Shown here piece by piece: positions 94 through 30,955 of a stretch of DNA of 42,218 nt. The notes below the pieces were generated by a model, which was given only the letters and a program-made list of their open reading frames with translations, ran no database searches and was not told the DNA's origin. This DNA comes from a virus: the IMG/VR virus record IMGVR_UViG_3300037297_000082, positions 1-42,218 of that record. One strand, 5' to 3'. The translations under genes and the position numbers were made by a program. The number at the start of each line of letters is the position of its first letter. The first letter of the stretch is position 1.

Positions 94-561
94 ATGCCGC
101 GCAGAGGCTATAGGAAGCCAGCGACGGGCGGAACGCGTAAGCGGAAGCCATCGAGCGCGGGCCATGGTGGCGCACGTGCTGGTGCCGGTCGGCCGAAGGG
201 GATTCCGTGGGACAAGATCAAACGAGCAGCGCGCGCGGGGGCGCCCTACGACGACATCGTTGCGGCCTATGTTGGAGCCGTCCAACTCGCTGACAAAGCG
301 AACCAGGAGAAACTCAGGGAGATTATCGACGAGGGGCACGCCCATAATCGTGTCAACTTGCGTTTGGCCATCGCAAAGCGCGGACTGGAGGACGGATCGG
401 TAAACCTCCTGCTAGGCAAGGCGCGCAATGAGCTCGACCCGCAGTGGGACTCTCAGAACGTAGCGCAGGCCGGAGTGCCGGACACGCTTGGTGCTGCGGA
501 GCGCCTCGGAGAGATTCTGGACAAGCTGGGCCGGAAGGTGAAGCGGAAGGGGCGCCGGTGA
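94..561 (+). CDS. Putative terminase small subunit
   Basis: A 155-residue basic protein directly upstream of, and overlapping, the large terminase gene, which is where the DNA-recognition subunit of the packaging motor normally lies. The N-terminus is rich in Arg, Lys and Gly, including a GARAGAGRPKG stretch often seen at the start of phage small terminases. The middle (about 50-115) looks helical, and the C-terminus ends in a basic RKVKRKGRR tail. No helix-turn-helix can be assigned with certainty; the call rests mainly on position and composition. Confidence 0.65.
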   Translation: MPRRGYRKPATGGTRKRKPSSAGHGGARAGAGRPKGIPWDKIKRAARAGAPYDDIVAAYVGAVQLADKANQEKLREIIDEGHAHNRVNLRLAIAKRGLEDGSVNLLLGKARNELDPQWDSQNVAQAGVPDTLGAAERLGEILDKLGRKVKRKGRR

Positions 562-2048
562 TCGTGTCGCTTCTTCCGCTTCTCTATCAGCTCGCCGCCG
601 CGCCGGCGCCGGTGCGGGCCGAGGCGATTCGCCAGCTTCCTCCGCAGGACCAGCAGGCTCTCTATCTGTCTGCGCGCTATGCCTGGCGCGATCTGTGGGC
701 CCGTCCCGGTCAGCTTCCGCCGGAGGAGCCCTGGCGCTACTGGTACATGATCGGCGGCCGTGGGTCGGGGAAGACCCGCCCTGCTGCAGAACTTGTGATC
801 GAGTGGGCGCGGGAGCCGGAGACGCGGATCGCCCTTATTGGGAGAGATGCCGGACAGGGGCGGAAGGTCATGGTGGACGGGGAAAGCGGGATCGTTGCCT
901 GTTCGCCACCATGGTTTCGTCCCAAGTATCTTCCCTCTTTGAAGCGTCTAGTCTGGCCCAATGGAAGCATCGGAGAGCTACACTCCGCCAACGAACCGGA
1001 GACTCTCCGCGGCCCGCAGTATCACAAGGCCTGGGCGGAGGAGCTTTTTCACTGGCCCATTCCGCCGAAGAGCGAGACGAAAGAGCCCGTCGCCTGGGTC
1101 GAAGGCCTACGCTATGGCCTTCGTCTTGGGACGAATCCCCAACTCGTTGCCACATCAACGCCCCGCTCTAGTGAGTTCTGTCATAACCTCCTGCTCGGTC
1201 GCAAGGCTGAGGACGGATCGAGGGCGATCCAACCACTCCCGAAGGATCATCCGGATCGCTACGCGGCCGACGGCTTTCCCTATCGTTGGGAGCACACGGC
1301 GACCGTCTGGGTTGATGGGATCCAGCAGGTCGTCAGGAGCGTGATTGCCCGCTGGCCAACGGAGGATAACCGCGACAACCTCGCCCCAGGGAAGCCCGAG
1401 GAGTGGCGTCACGAGTGGGGGCCATCTCGCTTGGGACAGCAGGAACTGGACGGCGCGATCCTGGCGCGTGCAGTCGGATCGCTCTTCTCGACCGACACGA
1501 TTGACGAATGGGCGGTCTACGGAGTTCCGCAGATCGTGCGGACTCTCGTCGCCGTTGATCCTACGCGGAGCAATAGCCCGACGGACGAGGCCGGGATCAT
1601 CGTCGGCGGTCTAGGGGCCGACGGTCACGGTTACGTGTGGGATGATGTGTCGATGCGTGGTGCCCCGAACCTGTGGGCGGCGCGCGCCCTTGAAGTTCGG
1701 AACCGATACGGCGCAACGGAGATCGTCTACGAGAAAAACCGCATGCCGGAGATGTTGAAGTCTCTGATCCGCACGATGGATCCAAGTTGTCGTTGGGTCG
1801 AGGTCTTCGCTACAGAGGACAAGCAAACGCGCGCCGAGCCGGTATCTGCCCTGTATCAGCAGGGAAGGGTACATCATGTGCGCGATGCACGCGAACCGAT
1901 GCGTCTTGCGCGCCTCGAAGATGAGATGATCGCCTGGGATCCGAAGCTGAAGATGCCGAGTCCCAACCGGATGGATGCTCTGGTCTGGCTCATCACGGCG
2001 CTGATGCTCGGTGATGGTCCTGTGCGCCATTCGTTCGCGGTGGTCTAG
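558..2048 (+). CDS. terL: Terminase large subunit
   Basis: ATPase-nuclease of the DNA packaging motor, about 496 residues. The Walker A motif GGRGSGKT is at about residues 66-73. A Walker B-like AWAEEL follows about 90 residues later. The C-terminal nuclease half starts near VAVDPTRS and ends with a DALVWLITALML helix typical of phage terminases. I chose the GTG at 558, which overlaps the stop of the upstream gene (GTGA), over the ATG at 444, because the extra 38 residues would be read out of frame through the small subunit gene and look non-coding. Confidence 0.95.
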   Translation: MIVSLLPLLYQLAAAPAPVRAEAIRQLPPQDQQALYLSARYAWRDLWARPGQLPPEEPWRYWYMIGGRGSGKTRPAAELVIEWAREPETRIALIGRDAGQGRKVMVDGESGIVACSPPWFRPKYLPSLKRLVWPNGSIGELHSANEPETLRGPQYHKAWAEELFHWPIPPKSETKEPVAWVEGLRYGLRLGTNPQLVATSTPRSSEFCHNLLLGRKAEDGSRAIQPLPKDHPDRYAADGFPYRWEHTATVWVDGIQQVVRSVIARWPTEDNRDNLAPGKPEEWRHEWGPSRLGQQELDGAILARAVGSLFSTDTIDEWAVYGVPQIVRTLVAVDPTRSNSPTDEAGIIVGGLGADGHGYVWDDVSMRGAPNLWAARALEVRNRYGATEIVYEKNRMPEMLKSLIRTMDPSCRWVEVFATEDKQTRAEPVSALYQQGRVHHVRDAREPMRLARLEDEMIAWDPKLKMPSPNRMDALVWLITALMLGDGPVRHSFAVV

Positions 2049-2059
2049 GAGGTTTGATG

Positions 2060-3346
2060 ATGGCTTCACTCGCCCCGATTCGCAACTTCTTCGGGGGCAT
2101 CCTGCGCGGACGAGGTGCGCAGGTGGCCTCTGGCGCCATGCGCTCGGATCCGCCACCGATGGGGACGCGGGAGTTCCTCGAGCAATACGAGACCTCTCCC
2201 TGGGTGCGCGGGATGCTCCAGAAAGTCGGGCAGTCGATTGGGTCGACCGTCTGGCAGCTCTGGCGCATTGATCGCGAGACGCAGGTCTTCGGCCATCGTC
2301 TCGAGCGTCTCCTGCGCCGCCCCAACCCGATGATGACGGGCCGAGCGATCTGGTCAGGCGCGCAGGTCTCGCTGGATCTCGTGGGCTGTTGCTTTTTCGT
2401 AAAGGAGCGCAACGGCCTCCGTGTGACAACGGGCCTGTGGCCGATTCCTGCCCATTGGGTTGCCGAGACGCCGACTCCCGCAAAGCCGACGTTCCGTCTC
2501 TCGCATGGGAAGCTTCAGGCGACTATCCCGCAATCCGAGGTGCTCTGGATCAACGATCCGGCGCCAGAGAATCCCTATCGGCGGGGGTCTGGCATCATGC
2601 AGGCGCTCGGGGACGAGATCGAGACCGACGAGTACAGCGCCAAGCATGCCAAGCAGCTCTTTTTCAATCGCGCGATGCCCGAGGTGGTCATCATGGATCC
2701 GGAGGCGAAGGAAGACGAAATCCGCGTCTATGAGCGGAAGTGGAACCAGCGCCTCCGCGGACTCTGGAGGGCCCTTCAGCCCTACTTCACGAATCGGGAG
2801 TTCAAGTTCTGGCAGCCCCAGCAGATGAACCTCGAGAACTTGACGCTTGTCCCGCTGCGGAAGTGGCAGCGTGATATCCAGCTTCAGGCCTACGGCATGC
2901 CTCCCGAGCAGATGGGGCTTCTCGAGAACAGCAACCGCGCGACGATCGACGCCAGCGACTTCGTCTATCAGGATCGCATCGTCCAGCCCCGGCGAGAGTT
3001 CCTGGCCGATGCCCTGACGATTGGCCTGGCCTCCGAGTTCGATAACCGGATCGAGGTTCGGTTTTTGTCCACGGTCCCGGGGGACAAAGCGCACGAGCTG
3101 GCCGTCATGGCGAAGTTCCCGTGGGCGTTCACGCGCGATCAGATCCTCGTGGCCAGCGGTCGGCCGGCGATCGGCGGGAAAGAGGGGCAGGAGCGATGCG
3201 TGCCGCTCAACAGCTACATCACGACCGATCCTCTTGACCAGGAGCAGCGGCCGAGCGGGGCGGGGGGCACGCAACGGGCGGGAGATGAGGACGCATCCGG
3301 CGCCGCGCAGCGGGCCGGCCAGGAAGAGAACGATGATGGCGAGTGA
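2060..3346 (+). CDS. Portal protein, HK97-like
   Basis: Dodecameric portal at the capsid vertex, about 428 residues. The layout matches HK97-family portals: an early segment on the first plasma-facing helices, a WSGAQVSLDL stretch, a WINDPAPENPYR motif, and the wing/clip region with GMPPEQMG and SNRATIDAS. The gene lies right after terL. AGGAGG ends at 2052, so the ATG at 2060 has better spacing than the ATG at 2057. The C-terminus is a low-complexity Gly/Ala/Glu tail. Confidence 0.93.
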   Translation: MASLAPIRNFFGGILRGRGAQVASGAMRSDPPPMGTREFLEQYETSPWVRGMLQKVGQSIGSTVWQLWRIDRETQVFGHRLERLLRRPNPMMTGRAIWSGAQVSLDLVGCCFFVKERNGLRVTTGLWPIPAHWVAETPTPAKPTFRLSHGKLQATIPQSEVLWINDPAPENPYRRGSGIMQALGDEIETDEYSAKHAKQLFFNRAMPEVVIMDPEAKEDEIRVYERKWNQRLRGLWRALQPYFTNREFKFWQPQQMNLENLTLVPLRKWQRDIQLQAYGMPPEQMGLLENSNRATIDASDFVYQDRIVQPRREFLADALTIGLASEFDNRIEVRFLSTVPGDKAHELAVMAKFPWAFTRDQILVASGRPAIGGKEGQERCVPLNSYITTDPLDQEQRPSGAGGTQRAGDEDASGAAQRAGQEENDDGE

Positions 3347-3634: not shown

Positions 3635-3882
3635 TGGAATGCGTCGATTGTGGGGCCGAGATCAATCTTCCTATCATGTGCTCAACTGGGCCCTACGTTC
3701 CTATTCCGGGTCGAAGGGCTTCCATTCGCTGCTCAAGCTGCGAGCGGGCAAGGTTGGCTGATGAGAGCATGGCCAAGGTGCGCAAGTTCATGCAAGCGCG
3801 TGGATGGCTTCACACCGTCGAGGCGGTCGAGCAGCTGTCGCCGGATGACTCGCGCCACTGGGGTCCTGGGTTGCGATCATGA
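3634..3882 (+). CDS. Small zinc-ribbon-like protein
   Basis: An 82-residue protein with CVDC near the N-terminus and CSSC about 35 residues later, the spacing of a treble-clef or zinc-ribbon knuckle pair. The C-terminal half is helical. GGGGAG lies 6 nt before the ATG. The function is unknown. It ends overlapping the start of the cytidylyltransferase gene, so the two are probably translated together. Confidence 0.65.
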   Translation: MECVDCGAEINLPIMCSTGPYVPIPGRRASIRCSSCERARLADESMAKVRKFMQARGWLHTVEAVEQLSPDDSRHWGPGLRS

Positions 3883-4562
3883 ACGCCATCGCCATCATCC
3901 CGGCCCGCGGCGGCTCCCGTGGCGTCCCGCGGAAAAACCTCTGCGAGGTCGGCGGAAAGCCGCTGATGGTCTGGTCGATCCAGGCGGCGCTGGAGGCCGG
4001 CCTTGAGGTCGTGGTCTCGTCGGACGACGATGAAATCCTCGAAATGGCAGCACGCGATGACGTGCTCTTGAGGCGTCGTCCGTACGGTCTCGCAACCGAT
4101 GGGGCCCTGACGGATCCGGTGCTGGTGGATGCCGTCAACGCCTTGGGCCGGCCTGAGCTCTCGCATGTAGTCCTGCTCCAGCCCACGGTCCCCGTCCGGT
4201 CGGTGGGCCTGGTGGCCCGGTGTCTCCAGGTGGCCGAGGAGACGGGCGCCGATTCGGTCTTCACGGCCTACCCGCTGCACTTCGTGTGGTGGAGAGCCGG
4301 GATGGATCCCGGCCGGACAGACCATCGGCCCGACACCTGGGAGACGCAGTGCCGGCGCCGGCCGCGCAGGCAGGACATGCACGCCCGGGAGCTGATGTAT
4401 CACGAGGACGGGAGTGTCTACGTGACGCGCGTCCAGACGCTCCTGGAGACGGGCTCGAGGGTGGCCGGGCGGGTCGAGATCGTTGAGACGGAGCGGACGG
4501 TCGACGTGGACACTGAGGCGGATCTGATCGTGGCGGATGCGCTGCTGAGGGCGCGCGCGTGA
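3879..4562 (+). CDS. CMP-sugar synthetase-like cytidylyltransferase (NeuA/CTP_transf_3 type)
   Basis: A full-length 227-residue enzyme of the acylneuraminate cytidylyltransferase family, which activates a nonulosonic or Kdo-like sugar with CTP. The N-terminal signature AIIPARGGSRGVPRKNL (residues 5-21) is almost the family consensus. Also present are VVSSDDDEI (46-53), LLQPTVPVR (99-107), RRQD (163-166), DGSVYV (177-182) and DVDTEADL (209-216), whose two Asp residues match the metal-binding pair of the family. No catalytic motif appears degraded. It sits between portal and protease, where head genes are expected, so the product may modify the virion. The exact sugar cannot be read from sequence. 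Confidence 0.88.
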   Translation: MNAIAIIPARGGSRGVPRKNLCEVGGKPLMVWSIQAALEAGLEVVVSSDDDEILEMAARDDVLLRRRPYGLATDGALTDPVLVDAVNALGRPELSHVVLLQPTVPVRSVGLVARCLQVAEETGADSVFTAYPLHFVWWRAGMDPGRTDHRPDTWETQCRRRPRRQDMHARELMYHEDGSVYVTRVQTLLETGSRVAGRVEIVETERTVDVDTEADLIVADALLRARA

Positions 4563-4771
4563 CCCGCATCCGCACGCCGCGCGACCTGGCCGAGGCCGAG
4601 GGCTCCGTGACGGTCTCCGAGTTGGCCCTGGTCGTGCGCTGCTCCGAGCGCTGGGTCAGGAAGCTCATCGCCTGCCGGGCGATCCGGTTCGGGCGTGTGG
4701 GGCGGAACTACCGGATCCCGGCCGAGGAGGCCCGGCGCGTCGCGCGCGAGGCCGGAATCCTGCCCGCATAG
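4559..4771 (+). CDS. Excisionase-like helix-turn-helix protein
   Basis: A 70-residue protein with one MerR/excisionase-type winged helix: SVTVSELALVVRCSERWVRKLI, then a wing with FGRVGRNYRIPAEE. Proteins of this family bind DNA and act as excisionases or small regulators. A GTGA overlap couples it to the cytidylyltransferase gene. No integrase is visible in the window, so a regulatory role in head-gene expression is as likely as excision. Confidence 0.75.
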   Translation: MTRIRTPRDLAEAEGSVTVSELALVVRCSERWVRKLIACRAIRFGRVGRNYRIPAEEARRVAREAGILPA

Positions 4772-4800
4772 TCGGCACGGCCGGAACTGTCGGCACGGCC
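4771..4800. repeat. Pair of 12 bp direct repeats
   Basis: GTCGGCACGGCC occurs at 4771-4782 and again at 4789-4800, 18 bp apart, in the 76 bp gap between the HTH gene and the protease gene. The spacing could place two binding sites on the same strand, for example for the HTH protein encoded just upstream. Confidence 0.5.
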
Positions 4801-4847
4801 ACGCCTAAACCCTTGCGCGTGAGGGACATAGGCTCCATCATCAGGGC

Positions 4848-5846
4848 ATGGATGGTGCCTTGTCCGCCGAGGCGCAGGCCCCCGTCGAGGGGACCGTCCG
4901 CTACCGACAGTTTGAGACCACCGTCAAGGCCGAGGGTGCGGATCGCGAGCTGGCCTTCACCGTCAGCACCGGCGCCGTAGATCGGCACCGGGACACGATC
5001 CGTCCCGAGGGCTGGGACCTCGACAACTTCCGCAAGGCCGGGTCTGTGCTGTGGGCCCATGATTCGTCTGGGCTCCCGATTGCCAGGCCGACCTATGCGG
5101 CCGTCATCGGCGGCGCGTTGAAGGCGCGCGCGGTTTTCGCGACCCGCGAGCTCTACGCCTTCGCGGACACCGTTTACGAAATGCTCCGTGGGGGTTTCCT
5201 GCGCGCCACGAGCGTCGGATTCTTGCCCAAGGAATGGTCGTATGACGAAGAGCGCGGCGGGTACAACATCCTGGCGCAGGAGCTCCTGGAGTGGTCCGTG
5301 GTCCCCGTCCCGGCCCTGCCAGATGCCTTGATCGAGGCCAAGCACTCCGGAGTGGACGTTGCCCCGATGCGCGAGTGGGCCGAGCGCACGCTGGATCAGG
5401 TCTCGGGCCCTGGCCTCTGGGTGCCGCGCGCCGCCGCCGAGCAGGTGTTCTCCCTCTCCGCGGGCGCGCCCGTTTCCGTCCTGTCGCCTGGCTCGCCCCG
5501 GGCGATCCTCTCAACCTCCACGTCTGAGGCGGGGGAGCAGGGCTCGGCCGGGTCTCATGCGCCCGTGTCGCCCGGTTCGAGTCCGGGCCCCGCAGCCGCC
5601 AAGGTGTTGAGTTCCGCGAATCAGTCGCGAGTGGAATCGGCGCGGGACGCCGCGCGCTCGATAGCGGACGGGCTCGAGGAGGTTTTGACTTCGGCCGCGT
5701 CCGAGGAGTCCGAAAGCGAGGAGAAGCATGCGGTCTTGCGCCTTGCGCAGCCGCCCGCGGCTGGCCTTTCTGCGGGCGATGTGCGCGCTATTGTGGCGGA
5801 GACCGTGCAGACCGTCGTAAGGCAGGCGCTGGGGCGCCTTGACTGA
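4848..5846 (+). CDS. Prohead protease, HK97 (S78) family
   Basis: A 332-residue maturation protease that cleaves the capsid scaffold region during head assembly. The core spans about residues 35-165: STGAVDRHRDTIRPEGW, then VLWAHDSSGLPI with the likely catalytic His71, then ATSVGFLP with the likely catalytic Ser122, then ELLEWSVVPVPALPDAL. The C-terminal 165 residues are Ala/Ser/Pro-rich and then helical, which could act as a scaffold-like extension. The ribosome site is weak. It directly precedes the major capsid gene. Confidence 0.92.
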   Translation: MDGALSAEAQAPVEGTVRYRQFETTVKAEGADRELAFTVSTGAVDRHRDTIRPEGWDLDNFRKAGSVLWAHDSSGLPIARPTYAAVIGGALKARAVFATRELYAFADTVYEMLRGGFLRATSVGFLPKEWSYDEERGGYNILAQELLEWSVVPVPALPDALIEAKHSGVDVAPMREWAERTLDQVSGPGLWVPRAAAEQVFSLSAGAPVSVLSPGSPRAILSTSTSEAGEQGSAGSHAPVSPGSSPGPAAAKVLSSANQSRVESARDAARSIADGLEEVLTSAASEESESEEKHAVLRLAQPPAAGLSAGDVRAIVAETVQTVVRQALGRLD

Positions 5847-5861
5847 CTGAAGGAGAAGACC

Positions 5862-7232
5862 ATGCCCGAAGACACGAAGCACGAGATGACCCGTGAGGAG
5901 CTCGTCAAGCTCATTCACGAGGAGTCCGCGAAGCAGGGCAAGCCGGCGCCTCAAGGTGACGATCTGGCCATCGTGCGGGACGCCACCGCCGAGGCAGTGG
6001 CCGCGGCGCTGAAGCCTCTGCTGGACAGCTCGAACTCGACCCTCAACGCGGTCAAGGATCTGGCGGAGGTGCAGAAGGAGCGCGAGGCAAAGCCGAAGCT
6101 CGGACTCGGCCGGAAGGTGCGCCTCTACGCCCTCGGCACGATGGACGAGAACGGAAAGGCCCTCGGCGGCCGGAGCCGCGCCAACGACATGGACTACCTG
6201 AAGTTCCAGGCTCGCCGGAACTGGGGCGAACTCGGAGCTGAGGCTATCAAGTTCGTCGACTACCAGCAGAAGGCGTCCGTTCACACGGTCCACGACTCCT
6301 CCGTTGCTGGCGACATCGTTCAGCCCGCCTACTCTCCAGAGTGGATCGAGCTGCTCCGGCCGGCGACTACGGTCCGCAGGATCGCTGCAACCGATCCAAT
6401 GCCGCGCGGCGCTCTCTCCGTCCGGAAGCAGACGCAGGACGCCACCGCCTACTACCAGGGCGAATCCGACAAGATGACGCAGTCGAACATCGAGGTCGGG
6501 CGGGAGACCATGAGCTATAAGAAGCTCACGGCGCTCTGCGTGCTCAACAACGATCTGATCCGATTCGGCGGACCCGAAGCGGACGCGCGTGTTGAGGCCT
6601 CGATGGTGGCCGCCGCCGGCCAGCGCGAGGATCAGGCCTTCTTGATGGGCAATCCGCCGACGAACGCCGGCTCGCCGAAGGGGATCGTTTTCTGGGCGAA
6701 CAGCGGGAGCCGCTTCCAGAACGCCGGCTCGGCCCTGACCAACTTCCAGAGCGACATCGGCATCGCGCTGGGCTACTTGTGGGACAACGACATCCCGGTC
6801 GACCCGACCAACACGTACATCATCATGAATCCGATTACCTGGCTCAAGATCCTGAGCCTCAGCATCGTCACGGGCGACCTCTCTTGGGCGGCCACGACCG
6901 CCGGCGGCCGGCTGACCTTCATGGGCTACCCGGCGCTGGTGACGTCTCAGCTCAGCAAGGGCAAGACCCATCCGCAGGCGGCCTTCGTCACAGCGCTCAG
7001 CCAGACCTACGGCGGCTCGATCATCGTGGCCTACGCGCCGGCTCTGCGGATCTACGACAGTTACGCGCTCACGACCACCGTCTATCCCGGAGGCGCCTAT
7101 TACGACGCCGCCCTGAGCGCGGTGGCCTCGGGCATCTCCAACGACGAGACCGTCGTGACCGCGATCGCGGAGCACGACTTCTTCATGTCCCATGACCGTG
7201 CCGCCTCGGTCATCATGAACTACAACCTGTAG
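5862..7232 (+). CDS. Major capsid protein, HK97 fold
   Basis: A 456-residue shell protein. Residues 1 to about 100 are charged and helical, as in the delta domain removed by the protease. The HK97-type body follows, with DIVQPAYSPEWIELLRPATTV, a VRKQTQD and YYQGES stretch of the E-loop and spine region, and REDQAFLMG. The C-terminus carries the usual beta-rich P/A domains ending in HDFFMSHDRAASVIM. AAGGAGAA precedes the ATG. Confidence 0.94.
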   Translation: MPEDTKHEMTREELVKLIHEESAKQGKPAPQGDDLAIVRDATAEAVAAALKPLLDSSNSTLNAVKDLAEVQKEREAKPKLGLGRKVRLYALGTMDENGKALGGRSRANDMDYLKFQARRNWGELGAEAIKFVDYQQKASVHTVHDSSVAGDIVQPAYSPEWIELLRPATTVRRIAATDPMPRGALSVRKQTQDATAYYQGESDKMTQSNIEVGRETMSYKKLTALCVLNNDLIRFGGPEADARVEASMVAAAGQREDQAFLMGNPPTNAGSPKGIVFWANSGSRFQNAGSALTNFQSDIGIALGYLWDNDIPVDPTNTYIIMNPITWLKILSLSIVTGDLSWAATTAGGRLTFMGYPALVTSQLSKGKTHPQAAFVTALSQTYGGSIIVAYAPALRIYDSYALTTTVYPGGAYYDAALSAVASGISNDETVVTAIAEHDFFMSHDRAASVIMNYNL

Positions 7233-7260
7233 AGCGCGGGAAAGCGAAAGGAGAACTGAG

Positions 7261-7869
7261 ATGGCATCCCCTAGCCTCCTGGGCGACCTGGGAGCCCAGA
7301 TCATCGGTCTCGGGCCCGCGTCGACGTCGACCGCGCCGTTCATTCTGGCGACCGGCGGCAGCGATACGGGCAGCGTGAGCAACACCGGGACGCGAGCGCT
7401 TGATCTCGCGAAACCCCTGCACTACTCGAGCACCGGCGGCAAGCCCCTCGACACCACGGTCAATCCCGAGGTGCTCCTTGGCTCGATCGGTTCTCGGTTG
7501 CATTCGATCGGCATTGACATCCCGATCGAGTTCACCTGGCACAGCTCGGGCAAGAGCATCCACGTGGTTGTGACCCACAAGCAACGGTCGGCAACGTCTG
7601 GCGCCGGGTCCACCTGGGACACGGTGGCCACCGAGACCTTCCGCTTCAAGGGCGGGACCTCGACGGACGTTGTCACGTTCCCGAGCGTTGTTTCCACGAT
7701 CCCGACGCAGGCGATCGAGCGCTACTACACCGCGGACGTCAAGGTCTGGTTCTGGCTGGCGTCCTCGACGGCCGGGAAGGACAGCTCGACCGACAAGAAC
7801 GTGATCGTGATGTGCCCGACCTACCTCGGACTGGCCAAGTCGCAGCCCGGCCAGCTGAACAAGGTCTAG
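7261..7869 (+). CDS. Putative head decoration protein
   Basis: A 202-residue beta-rich, Ser/Thr/Gly-rich protein directly after the capsid gene, with its own AAAGGAGAA site. The place fits a head fibre or decoration protein. No family motif is recognised. The protein has no signal peptide or membrane segment and no Cys except one near the C-terminus. It would also be a plausible acceptor for the proposed virion glycosylation, which is inference only. Confidence 0.55.
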   Translation: MASPSLLGDLGAQIIGLGPASTSTAPFILATGGSDTGSVSNTGTRALDLAKPLHYSSTGGKPLDTTVNPEVLLGSIGSRLHSIGIDIPIEFTWHSSGKSIHVVVTHKQRSATSGAGSTWDTVATETFRFKGGTSTDVVTFPSVVSTIPTQAIERYYTADVKVWFWLASSTAGKDSSTDKNVIVMCPTYLGLAKSQPGQLNKV

Positions 7870-7885
7870 CCCGGAGCGTCGCGGC

Positions 7886-8710
7886 ATGAGCGCGAGCGCT
7901 ACGGGCACGGCGGGGGCGGACGCAATCCGCCCCCGCAAGATCGGCATTCTGGGCTTTGGCCCAACCCTCAACGAGGCGCCGTTCGCCGACCCCTCATGGG
8001 AGCTGTGGGGCATGAACGGACTCCACCGGATTCTCCCGAAGGGCGTTCGGGAGGACCGCTTCTCCCTCTGGTTCGAACTTCACACGCAGGCCTTCCTGGA
8101 ATGGCACGGCCCCGCATCCAACATCGGCCGCCAGCAACTCGACTGGCTCGAGAAGCCGCATCCGTTCCCGATCTTGCACCACGAGCAGCGGGCAGACTGG
8201 CCGATGTCGGAGCGGTTCGACATCGATCGGTGCATCGCGGTTGGGCGGGACTACTTCACCTCCTCGGTTGCCTACGAGATCGCGTGGGCCCTGGTCGAGG
8301 TCCGTCGGGCCATGCAAGGCGACGAGGCCGACGCTCGGCCGCTGGTCGAGGAGGTCGGCGTCTGGGGGATCGATCTAGTGCACGGGACCGAGTGGGAGGA
8401 TCAGCGGCCGTGCGCGGAGTATTGGCTCGGTCTGCTCGAGGGCCACGGCATCAAGGTACACATCCCCGAGGGCTCGGCCCTCTTCAAAACGCCCTTCCGC
8501 TACGGCTATGACGAGGTCAACCCGCTCTACCTGGAGGTCATGGGAATCCTCGACAAACTCGACGAGAACGTGACCAAGGGGATCGCGGATTGCCAGAAGC
8601 GAATCGACGCCGACACGCGGCGGATGCACTCCAACGATGGCGCGCACCAGGCCGCAAACGAAATCCGCGAGGCGCTCAAGAAGCACCTGCGGGGAGCGAG
8701 GTTGATATGA
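7886..8710 (+). CDS. Rossmann-like protein, possible glycosyltransferase (MptE/DUF115- or sialyltransferase-like)
   Basis: 274 residues. It begins with KIGILGFGPTLNEAP (18-32), a nucleotide-binding GxGPT loop, followed by WELWGMNGL (38-46), WFELH (62-66), RDYFTSSVAY (121-130), a WGIDL strand (160-164) and QRPCAEYWLGLLEG (173-186). It ends with a charged helix of about 55 residues. The pattern recalls phage proteins with a GxGPSL loop and the DUF115/Maf or sialyltransferase-like fold; this is from memory of families and not proven. Together with the cytidylyltransferase at 3879 it could transfer a CMP-activated sugar to the capsid. Confidence 0.6.
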   Translation: MSASATGTAGADAIRPRKIGILGFGPTLNEAPFADPSWELWGMNGLHRILPKGVREDRFSLWFELHTQAFLEWHGPASNIGRQQLDWLEKPHPFPILHHEQRADWPMSERFDIDRCIAVGRDYFTSSVAYEIAWALVEVRRAMQGDEADARPLVEEVGVWGIDLVHGTEWEDQRPCAEYWLGLLEGHGIKVHIPEGSALFKTPFRYGYDEVNPLYLEVMGILDKLDENVTKGIADCQKRIDADTRRMHSNDGAHQAANEIREALKKHLRGARLI

Positions 8711-8943
8711 TGACCCCGAACACGACGGCCATCTGGGGATACGCGACGCGCGCCATCGGCGGCCCCTTCGGAGTTCCGAGGGGGACAGTCGAGCGGTTCT
8801 CTGTCGCACGTGGATCCGAGCTGCTGATGGATGGGGCGATCGAACGGTTCGACCCCCCGAACGAGCGTCACCAGAAGGCCCCGGGCGCCGAGTGCATTCC
8901 CGAGGATCTGCGGAAGCCGAAGGGGAGCCGCCGCGAGAAGTAG
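8707..8943 (+). CDS. Small protein of the head-completion region
   Basis: A 78-residue product starting at an ATGA overlap with the previous gene; a second ATG follows immediately. It has an IWGYATRAIGGPFGVPRG stretch and a basic C-terminus. The function is unknown. Its position just before the connector gene suggests a structural or assembly role. Confidence 0.6.
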   Translation: MMTPNTTAIWGYATRAIGGPFGVPRGTVERFSVARGSELLMDGAIERFDPPNERHQKAPGAECIPEDLRKPKGSRREK

Positions 8944-9849
8944 ATGCCCGTCTCTGTTTCGACGATCGCTCAGGACCGCCTGCTGACGAGCATTGCGCAC
9001 GTCAAGCGGGAGCTCGGGTTGACCGGGTCGACCTATGATGTGATCCTGGCCGGCCTGGTGGAGCATGCGAGCTCGGCGATCGAGAGCTATTGCAACCGGA
9101 TCTTTGCGCGTCAGGTCTATTCGGAGACCCTTCCAGGATTCGGCGGGGTAGAGCTTCAGCTTGGTCGCGCGCCGCTGATTGCGGTCTCATCGGTGCTTGA
9201 GGATGGAACGGCCATCACGGACTACTCACTCGGCGATCGAGATGAGAGCTACCTCTACCGGGAGGCCGGCTTCGGCTGGACGGCGCAGGCTATGGTGGGG
9301 CTTTCCGGTCGGCAGCGGTGGCCCATGTTCGCCACGCCGGCGCCGGACCGAATGCAGCCGGACTACACGGTCGCATACACGGCAGGCTACCTCCTGCCTG
9401 GCCAGTGGACAGAGGGGCAGACCACCATCTCGGCCTCGGATGTGGACAACAGCTTCAACGATTCCGCGTCCGGCTTCCCGTCGCTCTGCAAGGCGGGCGA
9501 TGTGATTGAGGTCGCCGGCTTCACGGCCGGGGGCGATAACGGGCGGTTTCTCGTGACGGGAACGCCGACGGCCGCCAAGATCATCGTTGACGCGACGCTG
9601 ACGACCGAGGCGGCCTCGAACTCGGTCACGATCAAGCATCTGGGACACTCTGACGTGCGTCCGTTCCTGGACGTCGAGAAAGCGGCCATTGAGACCGTCA
9701 AGGCCTGGCACTTCGTGCGAGAAGTGGATGCCTCGATCGTAGAGAAGCGGGCGGGCTCCCTCCATGTCCGCTACTCCGAGCAGGACGAGATCAAGGGGCT
9801 GGGGATCCCGCCGCTGGCGGCGGGCCTCCTCCGGCCGTGGGTGCGGTGA
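8944..9849 (+). CDS. Head-tail connector protein (gp6-like) with an inserted domain
   Basis: 301 residues, longer than most gp6-like adaptors. The N-terminal half has the helical adaptor pattern (LLTSIAHVKRELGL, YDVILAGLVEHASSAIESYCNRIF) and the DYTVAYTAGYL strand. Between about residues 158 and 235 lies a small beta domain (SFNDSASGF, GDVIEVAGFT, NGRFLVTG) seen in many phage connectors and fibres, then the adaptor helix resumes with VEKAAIETVKAWHF. It probably forms the ring beneath the portal. Confidence 0.8.
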   Translation: MPVSVSTIAQDRLLTSIAHVKRELGLTGSTYDVILAGLVEHASSAIESYCNRIFARQVYSETLPGFGGVELQLGRAPLIAVSSVLEDGTAITDYSLGDRDESYLYREAGFGWTAQAMVGLSGRQRWPMFATPAPDRMQPDYTVAYTAGYLLPGQWTEGQTTISASDVDNSFNDSASGFPSLCKAGDVIEVAGFTAGGDNGRFLVTGTPTAAKIIVDATLTTEAASNSVTIKHLGHSDVRPFLDVEKAAIETVKAWHFVREVDASIVEKRAGSLHVRYSEQDEIKGLGIPPLAAGLLRPWVR

Positions 9850-16094: not shown

Positions 16095-17399
16095 GTGGCC
16101 CGCTTCTCCTCTGCTCAGTATGCCGAGCTGGCGGTTCCCGGTGCCAAGTATCATGTCCTGATTGAGATCGATCTGCCAGACGATACGACTGCTAGGCTTG
16201 CGCCGACTACTCTAGGGCGCGGCGGGACCGGAACGTATTACGAGCGCATCGAATCCCTCAGCTCTTTCGCCCGCAGGATTGACTTTCGGCGATGCGCTCT
16301 CCAGAGTCCGACCGTGACCTGCAAGGTTCGCAACGCCGACCTGTGGTGGAGCATCAAGGAGGCGACGTTCGGGCCGGCGCTCTACAACTCCGCGGTGCGG
16401 ATTCTGTGCGCATCCCCGGGGACATCAAGTTCCGATTGGCTGACGCACTACACCGGCCGGCTGGTGGGATGGGACTCGCTCGATACGGCAACTCTGAAGT
16501 TTCGTCCCCCGGATGCCAAACTGCGTGCGAAGATCCAACTGAAGCGCGTGGGAGACAACTTTCCGGATGCCCCTGAAGCGAACCTCCAGACCGAGGTGCC
16601 GCTGTGCTATGGCCGCATCAGCGATCGCGGCGCGGCGACGATGGAAGGGATGGTGACGGGGATCCAGGTCGATAGCGCCGGGGACAACTTCTTGCTGTGC
16701 TACGGCTGGTTGACGAACGTTCTGGATGTCTTTGTGAACGGCACGCGGCTCACGTCCGGGTGGACCGCTACGTACGGTTTCGCGGGCGGGCACCGTTACA
16801 CGTGGATTGAGTTCGCAGTGGCGCGCCCCGGCGCGGCGATCACCGCGAACGTTGAGGGTTACGAATCGGTGGGCGATCGTAGCGGGACGTTCATCGCGCA
16901 TACGCTGGACCAGGTTCGTCACGTCATGACGAATTGGGTTTTCGCCGAGTCGGCCGGCGGGCTGTGGGTCGACGATTCTTCTCTCCCGATCGACGGCGCG
17001 TCATGTGATGCGGCAATCGCCTCACTCGCGGGGCGCGCTGGGGGTGGGGACTACGCCGGGACGCAATACATCACGACAGGCCAGCGTGGGCAGGATCTCC
17101 TCGACCGGGCGTGCTTGTCCGTGTTGGTTCCGTCGGCCTGGACATCGGCTGGACAAGTCGGGTTCGTATATGACGATCTGCACACGGCGGACTACCCGAC
17201 GTCCCTTGTTTTGAAGCATTACGATCTGCGCGAGAACGTTCAGCCGATTGTCGACGGCGCAGACGTTACTTCGTTTGTGCGTGCGGGCTGGGCGCCGGAG
17301 GCGACGGCGCAGGGTTCGGCGGAGTGTCAGAACCTAATCTATTCGGGCGGGGCATCCGAAGAGATCGATCTGCTTTGGGCGGGGGCGTCGGCGCGATGA
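16095..17399 (+). CDS. Distal tail / baseplate hub-like protein
   Basis: 434 residues starting with GTG directly after the tape-measure stop. Beta-rich, with PTVTCKVRNADLWWSIKEA, THYTGRLVGWDSL and VPLCYGRISDRGA, typical of tail-tip proteins that follow the tape measure. Function by position; no named family is certain. Confidence 0.7.
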   Translation: MARFSSAQYAELAVPGAKYHVLIEIDLPDDTTARLAPTTLGRGGTGTYYERIESLSSFARRIDFRRCALQSPTVTCKVRNADLWWSIKEATFGPALYNSAVRILCASPGTSSSDWLTHYTGRLVGWDSLDTATLKFRPPDAKLRAKIQLKRVGDNFPDAPEANLQTEVPLCYGRISDRGAATMEGMVTGIQVDSAGDNFLLCYGWLTNVLDVFVNGTRLTSGWTATYGFAGGHRYTWIEFAVARPGAAITANVEGYESVGDRSGTFIAHTLDQVRHVMTNWVFAESAGGLWVDDSSLPIDGASCDAAIASLAGRAGGGDYAGTQYITTGQRGQDLLDRACLSVLVPSAWTSAGQVGFVYDDLHTADYPTSLVLKHYDLRENVQPIVDGADVTSFVRAGWAPEATAQGSAECQNLIYSGGASEEIDLLWAGASAR

Positions 17400-18193
17400 A
17401 TCCACTCTACACCGGCAACATGACGTACTGGGGACTCCCGAGCGCCCTTGTTGCCGAGCACGGTCAGGCTATAGTCGCTGGCCCTCCGGGGCTCTACCTT
17501 GCGGATCTGACCGATGGTGGCGCTAACGACTTCGAGCAGACGACCTCGGCCGACGCGCCGCAGATGTACCACAACGCGCAGAATCGCCGCCCCGCCCTCT
17601 CGTTCGATGGGAGTCGTCAGTACATGACCGGGGCGGGCTTTGGAACGCTCTTCGGCGCGAGCGCGAAGACTCTGGCAATCGCCTTCAATGTCCTGAGCGT
17701 GGGGGCCAATGGTGCAATCATCGGAGATGCGGGGAGCAAGTTCGGTGTCTACGTGCAGGCGGGTCCGAGCTTGGTCATCTATCATAACGATGGTGCCGCT
17801 GACACGATCACGTTCACGAGCGCAGATGGCTTCGGCCTAGAGGCGTGGCATGTCCTCGTCGTGACCCACAATGGCGTGACGCTCTGGGCGATGTTGGATA
17901 CGTACGAAAGCCTAAAGCTAACGGCCAGTGGTGCTACGTCCGGCGGCGGGACGATGCGCCTCGGAGTGTCCGGCGCTGGCGACTTCCAGGAGTGCTTGAT
18001 TGGCGAGCTTCAGGCGTTCAACGCGCCCTTCAATCCGAATGGCGCGGATAATTCCGCGCTTCATCAGATCCTTAGCTACTTTCAGTCCGAATGGCTTGAT
18101 CGAGGCGATCCGCTTGCAATGGCTCAGGATGTGATGGCGCGGCGCATGGTCAACGGGATGCGCCCGCTATCAGAGTTGGAGATCCTGGCGTGA
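17396..18193 (+). CDS. Tail protein with concanavalin/LamG-like domain
   Basis: 265 residues, ATGA overlap upstream. The centre (about 70-215) shows a LamG-type jelly roll: RPALSFDGSRQYM, TLAIAFNVLS, AIIGDAG, WHVLVVTHNG, GTMRLGVSG and CLIGELQAFN. The C-terminus (ILSYFQSEW, MRPLSELEIL) is helical. It probably helps adhesion or forms part of a tail fibre. Confidence 0.75.
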   Translation: MNPLYTGNMTYWGLPSALVAEHGQAIVAGPPGLYLADLTDGGANDFEQTTSADAPQMYHNAQNRRPALSFDGSRQYMTGAGFGTLFGASAKTLAIAFNVLSVGANGAIIGDAGSKFGVYVQAGPSLVIYHNDGAADTITFTSADGFGLEAWHVLVVTHNGVTLWAMLDTYESLKLTASGATSGGGTMRLGVSGAGDFQECLIGELQAFNAPFNPNGADNSALHQILSYFQSEWLDRGDPLAMAQDVMARRMVNGMRPLSELEILA

Positions 18194-29888: not shown

Positions 29889-29933
29889 ATGCCTGCCTAT
29901 CCGACCACCACCGACCCGTTGGTAGTCTCATGA
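29889..29933 (+). CDS. 14-residue leader peptide coupled to the methyltransferase
   Basis: MPAYPTTTDPLVVS; its stop overlaps the methyltransferase start (ATGA). It uses the AAGGGAA site that lies in the pseudoknot. The methyltransferase has no obvious ribosome site of its own, so coupling to this ORF is likely. Confidence 0.5.
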   Translation: MPAYPTTTDPLVVS

Positions 29934-30955
29934 GCGACAAGCTCGCAATCCTCTCCGAGGTTGAGAGGAGGCTTGCCTCGATTGACCGAGTGGACGAGGC
30001 GAAGGCCATCAGGGACCAGGCCGAAGCCATTCGCATCTACGCCAAGAGCGCCAAGAAGGGCCTTGGGATTCAGAACAGAGCTGCGGCCATCAAGATCCTT
30101 GCCGAGCGCCGGGCCGGGGAGCTCCTCGCGAAGGTGGAGCGAGTGCAGGGCAACCGCGACGGGCGCAAGGGACTTCGTTCCACGCTGGAACGAAGTGATA
30201 TCGGTCTCGCCCAGGCTCACCGCTGGCAGCGCATCGCGACCGTGCCCGAGGCACAGATCCGCAAGCTCGAAGCCGAGTGCAATGAGGCCAAGCGTGAGCT
30301 GACGAGCGTAGCGATTATCAAGACCGCGCGCGATGCCCAGCGGCAAGCCGACGTCGAGGCCAAGTGTGGGCGCGGACCGAAGGCTGAGGAGGAAACCTGC
30401 CGCGTCGAAGACCTTGCCGTATTGAGCGCACGCGGTCGTAGATTCGGGGTCATCTATGCCGATCCGCCGTGGGCCTATGGGAATCAGGGCACGCGGGGGG
30501 CCACGAGCGACCACTATCATACGATGACGACCGACGACATTGCGGCTCTTCCTGTCGCAGGCCTCGCGGCCGATGATGCATTGTTGCATCTCTGGACGAC
30601 GAACGCTTTCCTCTTCGAGTCGAAGGCGGTGATCGAGTCCTGGGGTTTCAAGTACAAGAGCTGCTTCGTATGGGTGAAGCCCCAAATGGGAATGGGAAAC
30701 TACTGGCGCGTGTCCCATGAGTTCCTACTCCTTGGAGTTCGTGGCCGTCCAGCCTTCGGGAGCAGAGCGACAATGAGTTGGCTAGAGCTTCCGAGGGACG
30801 AGCACAGCGCGAAACCTGAACGCGTGCGAGCGCTTGTCGAGTTGGTTAGTCCTCGCCCGCGCCTGGAATTGTTCGGACGCAAGGTTTGCGAAGGCTGGAC
30901 CGTTTGGGGAAACGAAATTCGGAGAAACGTGTTTCTCGAGGAGAGTGAGGTTTGA
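29930..30955 (+). CDS. MT-A70-type adenine-N6 DNA methyltransferase with N-terminal helical domain
   Basis: 341 residues. The C-terminal half has the MT-A70 fold: FGVIYADPPWAYG with DPPW at 178-181, YHTMTTDDIAALPV, LLHLWTTNAFL, WGFKYKSCFVWVKP, the HEFLLLGVRG strand, and a C-terminal HSAKPERVRALVE with PRLELFGR. It uses S-adenosylmethionine to methylate adenine. The N-terminal 140 residues are helical and resemble the ParB-like regions fused to phage MT-A70 enzymes. It probably protects phage DNA or regulates. Directly coupled to a nuclease gene. Confidence 0.9.
   Translation: MSDKLAILSEVERRLASIDRVDEAKAIRDQAEAIRIYAKSAKKGLGIQNRAAAIKILAERRAGELLAKVERVQGNRDGRKGLRSTLERSDIGLAQAHRWQRIATVPEAQIRKLEAECNEAKRELTSVAIIKTARDAQRQADVEAKCGRGPKAEEETCRVEDLAVLSARGRRFGVIYADPPWAYGNQGTRGATSDHYHTMTTDDIAALPVAGLAADDALLHLWTTNAFLFESKAVIESWGFKYKSCFVWVKPQMGMGNYWRVSHEFLLLGVRGRPAFGSRATMSWLELPRDEHSAKPERVRALVELVSPRPRLELFGRKVCEGWTVWGNEIRRNVFLEESEV

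Follow-up and report, generated by a model that had tools for sequence, protein, structure and literature searches.

Does a phage that carries a CMP-sugar synthetase and a transferase-like protein in its head operon use them to decorate its own particle? The question is raised by a virus record of 42,218 bases (G+C 65%), the whole of which was analysed and is called the window here, and which has its head module at its start. All genes of the module that concern us lie on the + strand:

444..2048, +, terminase large subunit (PF03237, E 2.2e-15; PF17289)
2054..3346, +, portal protein (PF04860, E 2.9e-35)
3879..4562, +, most likely a CMP-nonulosonate (NeuA/PseF-type) synthetase, 227 aa, ATG start (PF02348, TIGR03584 and PpNeuA/CMAS matches)
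4559..4771, +, small HTH_17-like protein (PF12728, E 9.8e-6, just below the cut-off)
4848..5846, +, prohead protease (PF04586, E 2.3e-7; phrog_80)
5862..7232, +, HK97-type major capsid protein (PF05065, E 2.3e-19; phrog_617)
7261..7869, +, candidate head/decoration protein, Ser/Thr-rich, beta jelly-roll-like in a predicted model, no family match
7886..8710, +, putative glycosyltransferase, GT42-like (sialyltransferase fold), 274 aa, from fold and family profile
8944..9849, +, head-tail connector (phrog_442, E 6.2e-21)

Small ORFs occupy the interval between the portal and synthetase genes. Tight gene overlaps were read at 3879 (ATGA), 4559 (GTGA) and 8707 (ATGA), and hence the synthetase and the 7886 gene are regular members of the operon. 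The GTGA places the start of the HTH_17-like gene over the synthetase stop; a homologue of this small gene adjoins the synthetase in another locus, L005.

The initial annotation had described a full-length cytidylyltransferase with intact motifs between portal and protease, and our analysis bore this out. The 3879-4562 product matched CTP_transf_3 (PF02348) with 54.3 bits (E 2.1e-14; cut-off 22.6), and its gene lies between those of the PF04860 and PF04586 proteins. The motifs are complete: the PARxGS...KN nucleotide loop of CTP_transf_3 is present as PARGGSRGVPRKN, along with LATDGALTD, LLQPTVPVR, RRPRRQDM, EDGSVYV and DVDTEADL, and all are kept in phage relatives of 43-60% identity. In NCBIfam the product matched PseF (TIGR03584) with 103.5 bits (E 1.3e-29), under the equivalog cut-off of 205.7, so that the PseF model does not fix the exact sugar. 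The best PDB relatives were PpNeuA (E 1.7e-21) and mouse CMAS (E 1.6e-20). The window enzyme has their full length and all their motifs, including the common RPRRQD stretch; unlike them, it is phage-borne, lies inside a head operon and has no NeuB beside it. Since the scores are of the nonulosonate type and the motifs are intact, the product is most likely a CMP-nonulosonate synthetase, acting on a sugar of the Neu, Pse, Leg or Kdn type. Identity as KdsB (CMP-Kdo) was considered and rejected, as KdsB models gave at most 43 bits against 103 for PseF, and the PDB scores were 34 bits for KdsB against 77-80 for NeuA/CMAS.

The protein encoded by 7886-8710 was said in the initial annotation to carry GxGPT, WGMN and YFTSS motifs and to follow the capsid and decoration genes. 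The motifs are there (GFGPT, WGMN and RDYFTSS), as is the position 3' of the PF05065 capsid gene, while "decoration" is to be taken as a candidate role for 7261-7869. The protein alone had no match in Pfam, PHROGs or NCBIfam; single-sequence phmmer against PDB and hmmsearch with a nine-sequence profile of the family gave nothing meaningful. It was therefore identified by comparison of fold and profile only.

An AlphaFold2 model built with nine phage sequences had a confident core (mean pLDDT 81.5). Comparison of its fold with GT29, GT42 and DUF115 proteins had been set beforehand as the point at which the proposal might fail; the fold found was of this GT42/GT29/DUF115 class, with CstII as the best match. 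Foldseek against PDB returned two matches below 1e-3, both CstII (2.4e-4 and 6.1e-4), then another CstII chain and GT29 enzymes. VIA alignment placed CstII/CstI and a Pasteurella sialyltransferase on top (Z 9.5-10.3, 151-162 residues, 3.3-3.7 A); CstII aligned over residues 17-205 of the model with Z 10.3, 159 residues, 3.4 A and 18% identity. The M. jannaschii MptE-type HPPK (Z 9.2) and then GT29 enzymes (Z 6-7) ranked after GT42, and the matches among viral structures include proteins named DUF115 or MptE-like. A sequence profile (A5) of 42 diverse phage members of the family matched CstII in PDB with E 5.1e-5, and its nine best matches were all GT42. Two regions of A5, one at the first strand/WGLN and one at YFTSS...EIxLxGVD, aligned with their counterparts in CstII. 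PF06002 reached only E 0.025, in one of the 42 members, and PF01973 (MptE-like, DUF115) at best E 0.026, in two, the window protein matching neither.

Fold comparison and sequence profile concur, which argues for a GT42-type ancestry and supports the assignment of the protein as a GT42-like putative glycosyltransferase with a sialyltransferase-type fold. A long, conserved C-terminal helix (residues 213-268) is predicted outside the CstII-aligned part. Two scans of genome contigs found no bacterial homologue. A homologue in a Microcystis phage (L189:11905-12708; PP496355.1 34781-35584) is annotated as a "type 11 methyltransferase", and the predicted fold of the family suggests that this label is a misannotation.

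The catalytic base of CstII is His188 (PMC4202792). No equivalent could be placed in the 7886 family, the A5-CstII alignment stopping before His188, and no His following D163 is conserved across the 42 sequences (H166 is found in 12). Several other polar residues are well conserved: H66 in 39 of the 42, D163 in 38 and E169 in 38 (D in three), and each of H66, D163, E169, Q173 and R174 is retained in 32-39 sequences. We propose that a carboxylate or H66 may serve as the base.

If the two proteins act together, their genes should be inherited together, as the initial annotation had expected of related phages. Loci were gathered by the head-tail connector, which is unrelated to either gene and as a neutral seed avoids choosing loci by one of them. 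Once redundancy was removed, the loci that had portal, capsid and connector comprised six with both genes, 31 with neither and none with a single one, in line with that expectation (Fisher p 4.3e-7, a descriptive figure that overstates independence because the six positive modules belong mostly to one broad clade). Contigs spanning the window-type head module have synthetase and transferase; three close relatives that share the connector family, L113, L122 and L123, are without both, and neither gene was found over the rest of the available records of L113 and L123. The pair persists although the location of the synthetase within the operon varies. In the window, L003, L004, L005 and L015 its place is between portal (or terminase) and protease, and in L007, L009, L010, L040, L048 and L049 it is 3' of the transferase gene; in L009, L010 and L040 the transferase stop is overlapped by the synthetase start. 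Looked at from the other side, a transferase-family gene is present in the same locus for 35 of 75 non-redundant synthetase loci, mostly selected by synthetase. Relatives of the synthetase with less than about 40% identity, which frequently sit outside recognised head modules in records that carry NeuB, were left out of the pairing evidence. In a mirror-tree test the distances of the two proteins correlated (r 0.66) no better than those of other head-gene pairs, and the test was therefore not used as support.

The GT42-like fold and this co-occurrence lend good support to the view of the two products as partners, one a CMP-sugar maker and the other a transferase. That phages couple such activities is suggested independently by one ORF of a 200.9 kb virus record (L082:9983-11437), in which a GT29 sialyltransferase domain (PF00777, E 2.9e-14) is joined to a CMP-sugar synthetase. 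Members of the transferase family are also found where there is no synthetase, in the Microcystis phage PP496355 (beside terminase) and in L020 and L030, whose records may be partial; thus the donor need not always be a phage-made CMP-sugar.

Some related loci depart from the common layout. A head-operon synthetase, L071:7072-8382, has a C-terminal extension of about 200 residues, assigned to no family, that looks GT42/DUF115-like by eye (RNGYTAG...IHLVGMN); as a fusion to the 7886 family it was rejected, the profile giving E 0.02 and Pfam being unsupportive. L041, L048 and L049 carry two transferase-family copies, one on either side of the connector, and in L015 the portal gene (7332-8747) comes after the connector gene, which is not the usual arrangement in this head module.

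Where would the sugar come from? Neither the window nor the window-type records of 25-47 kb, among them relatives of 43-47 kb taken as full-size, showed NeuB (PF03102), though none of them is certified complete; of 50 phage records examined, 29 have it, for the most part records whose synthetases are more distant. The sugar of window-type phages is therefore presumably a nonulosonic acid of the host, or a scavenged one. From the family of the enzyme and its intact motifs, the 3879 product would convert free nonulosonic acid of the host pool (Neu, Pse, Leg or Kdn type) and CTP to the CMP-sugar. The 7886 protein, judging from its fold, the pairing and the operon, would then, in the cytoplasm of the infected cell and before or during assembly, transfer the sugar to a protein of the phage head. 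An activating enzyme and a sialyltransferase-like protein encoded among capsid genes, and kept or lost together in relatives, hint at a virus that decorates its particle with a sialic-acid-like sugar. On balance we lean towards this reading, in which a phage sialylation-type module made up of the two genes activates a host sugar and puts it on a head protein.

The likeliest acceptor for such a module would be the product of 7261-7869, just upstream of the transferase gene, or else the capsid protein (5862-7232), as the operon position and the Ser/Thr-rich, jelly-roll-like character of the neighbour suggest. The 7261-7869 protein contains 25.2% Ser+Thr and had no family match. Its AlphaFold2 model, of modest confidence (pLDDT 64.8), is a beta jelly-roll whose best fold matches were the birnavirus VP2 projection domain and TNF-like/lectin folds. 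A scan with its alignment gave nine loci, all nine of which carry the GT42-like gene. The decoration analogues of L113 and L123, which are without the pair, have 16.9-20.9% Ser+Thr and are not clearly poorer; with about 21% in L123, Ser/Thr content alone does not discriminate acceptors.

The main rival to a virion target is that the pair alters a glycan on the host surface, be it lipopolysaccharide, capsule or another glycoconjugate, for instance so that the receptor is masked against superinfection, and that its site in the head operon is due to timing or chance insertion. The location may mean no more than that an insertion is tolerated there. GT42 enzymes of known function act on lipooligosaccharide (PMC4202792), phage-encoded enzymes altering a nonulosonic acid (capsular pseudaminic acid) in the host capsule are known (PMC12053666), and a virion acceptor for the 7886 protein is itself inferred. 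Against this, late expression with the head module would probably be poor timing for a change of the host surface, the pair of the window clade stays in the head module though at differing places, and the neighbouring jelly-roll gene was seen only alongside the transferase gene. We regard host-glycan modification as unlikely, while taking it seriously.

A change of chemistry on the same fold appears doubtful to a greater degree. Here the 7886 protein would be an MptE-like diphosphokinase or catalyse another nucleotide-dependent transfer, with the synthetase serving something else. The Z score of the M. jannaschii HPPK is near that of CstII, viral-structure matches bear DUF115 or MptE-like names, His188 was not placed, and some family members are without synthetase. 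On the other hand, the significant sequence-profile matches in PDB were to GT42 only, the gene that tracks 7886 in its clade most likely makes a CMP-sugar, which is the donor of GT42/GT29 enzymes, and a synthetase is fused to a GT29 domain in L082. Still more improbable is a catalytically dead 7886 protein that serves as a structural, assembly or sugar-binding factor of the head beside an unrelated auxiliary metabolic synthetase gene, since the long conserved helix and the place among structural genes, which would suit it, are set against polar residues retained in diverse sequences and genes present or absent together.

Among known systems, the module we favour has its nearest functional analogy in the Maf/DUF115 flagellin transferases, a fold class related to GT42-like proteins. 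The mode proposed here is likewise that a nonulosonate passes from its CMP-activated form to a structural protein whose gene is close by; unlike these enzymes, the window protein has no Pfam MptE-like/DUF115 match, and its target would be a protein of the phage head. For Maf proteins, which use CMP-nonulosonates, the recipient is flagellin, and the two interact in the cytoplasm (PMC13317340). The GT42 enzymes CstI and CstII of Campylobacter resemble the 7886 protein in fold, in the TS and G-I-D core motifs and in having a CMP-sugar partner enzyme. They differ from it in that 7886 is a phage head-operon gene whose product has the long C-terminal helix, that its counterpart of His188 was not located, and that its acceptor is probably a protein in place of lipooligosaccharide. 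Virion glycosylation by other transferases occurs in other phages, according to PMC12363180, citing Freeman 2023. In the mycobacteriophages Che8 (gp110), Corndog (gp38) and Myrna, a phage-encoded transferase acts on capsid or tail proteins, as proposed here; they use other transferases, and the texts consulted report no CMP-sugar synthetase alongside them.

No description of a synthetase-transferase pair in a phage head module was found in the literature within our scope, which left out most subscription journals and all preprints. Nor did the papers searched yield a case of sialic-acid-type decoration for which the phage itself encodes activator and transferase; virion glycosylation is known in a few phages, with other transferases. 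We advance tentatively, as possible and not as expected, the wider proposal that a widespread phage GT42-like family sialylates a jelly-roll capsid decoration protein, drawing on nonulosonic acid of the host that a CMP-sugar synthetase of the phage has activated, and so gives the virion a sialic-acid-type coat. If true, this would supply a group of unannotated head-module proteins of phages, for which neither Pfam nor PHROGs has a family, with a donor and a mechanism; it would also tie phage particles to the nonulosonic acid pools of their hosts, and could account for a sialic-acid-like surface of some environmental phages.

Elsewhere in the window, two further genes lie 3' of the tail tape measure: 17324-18193, encoding a protein with a LamG/ConA-like lectin domain (E 1.4e-5, narrowly missing the cut-off), and 29930-30955, encoding a protein with an MT-A70 methyltransferase domain (E 3.5e-24).
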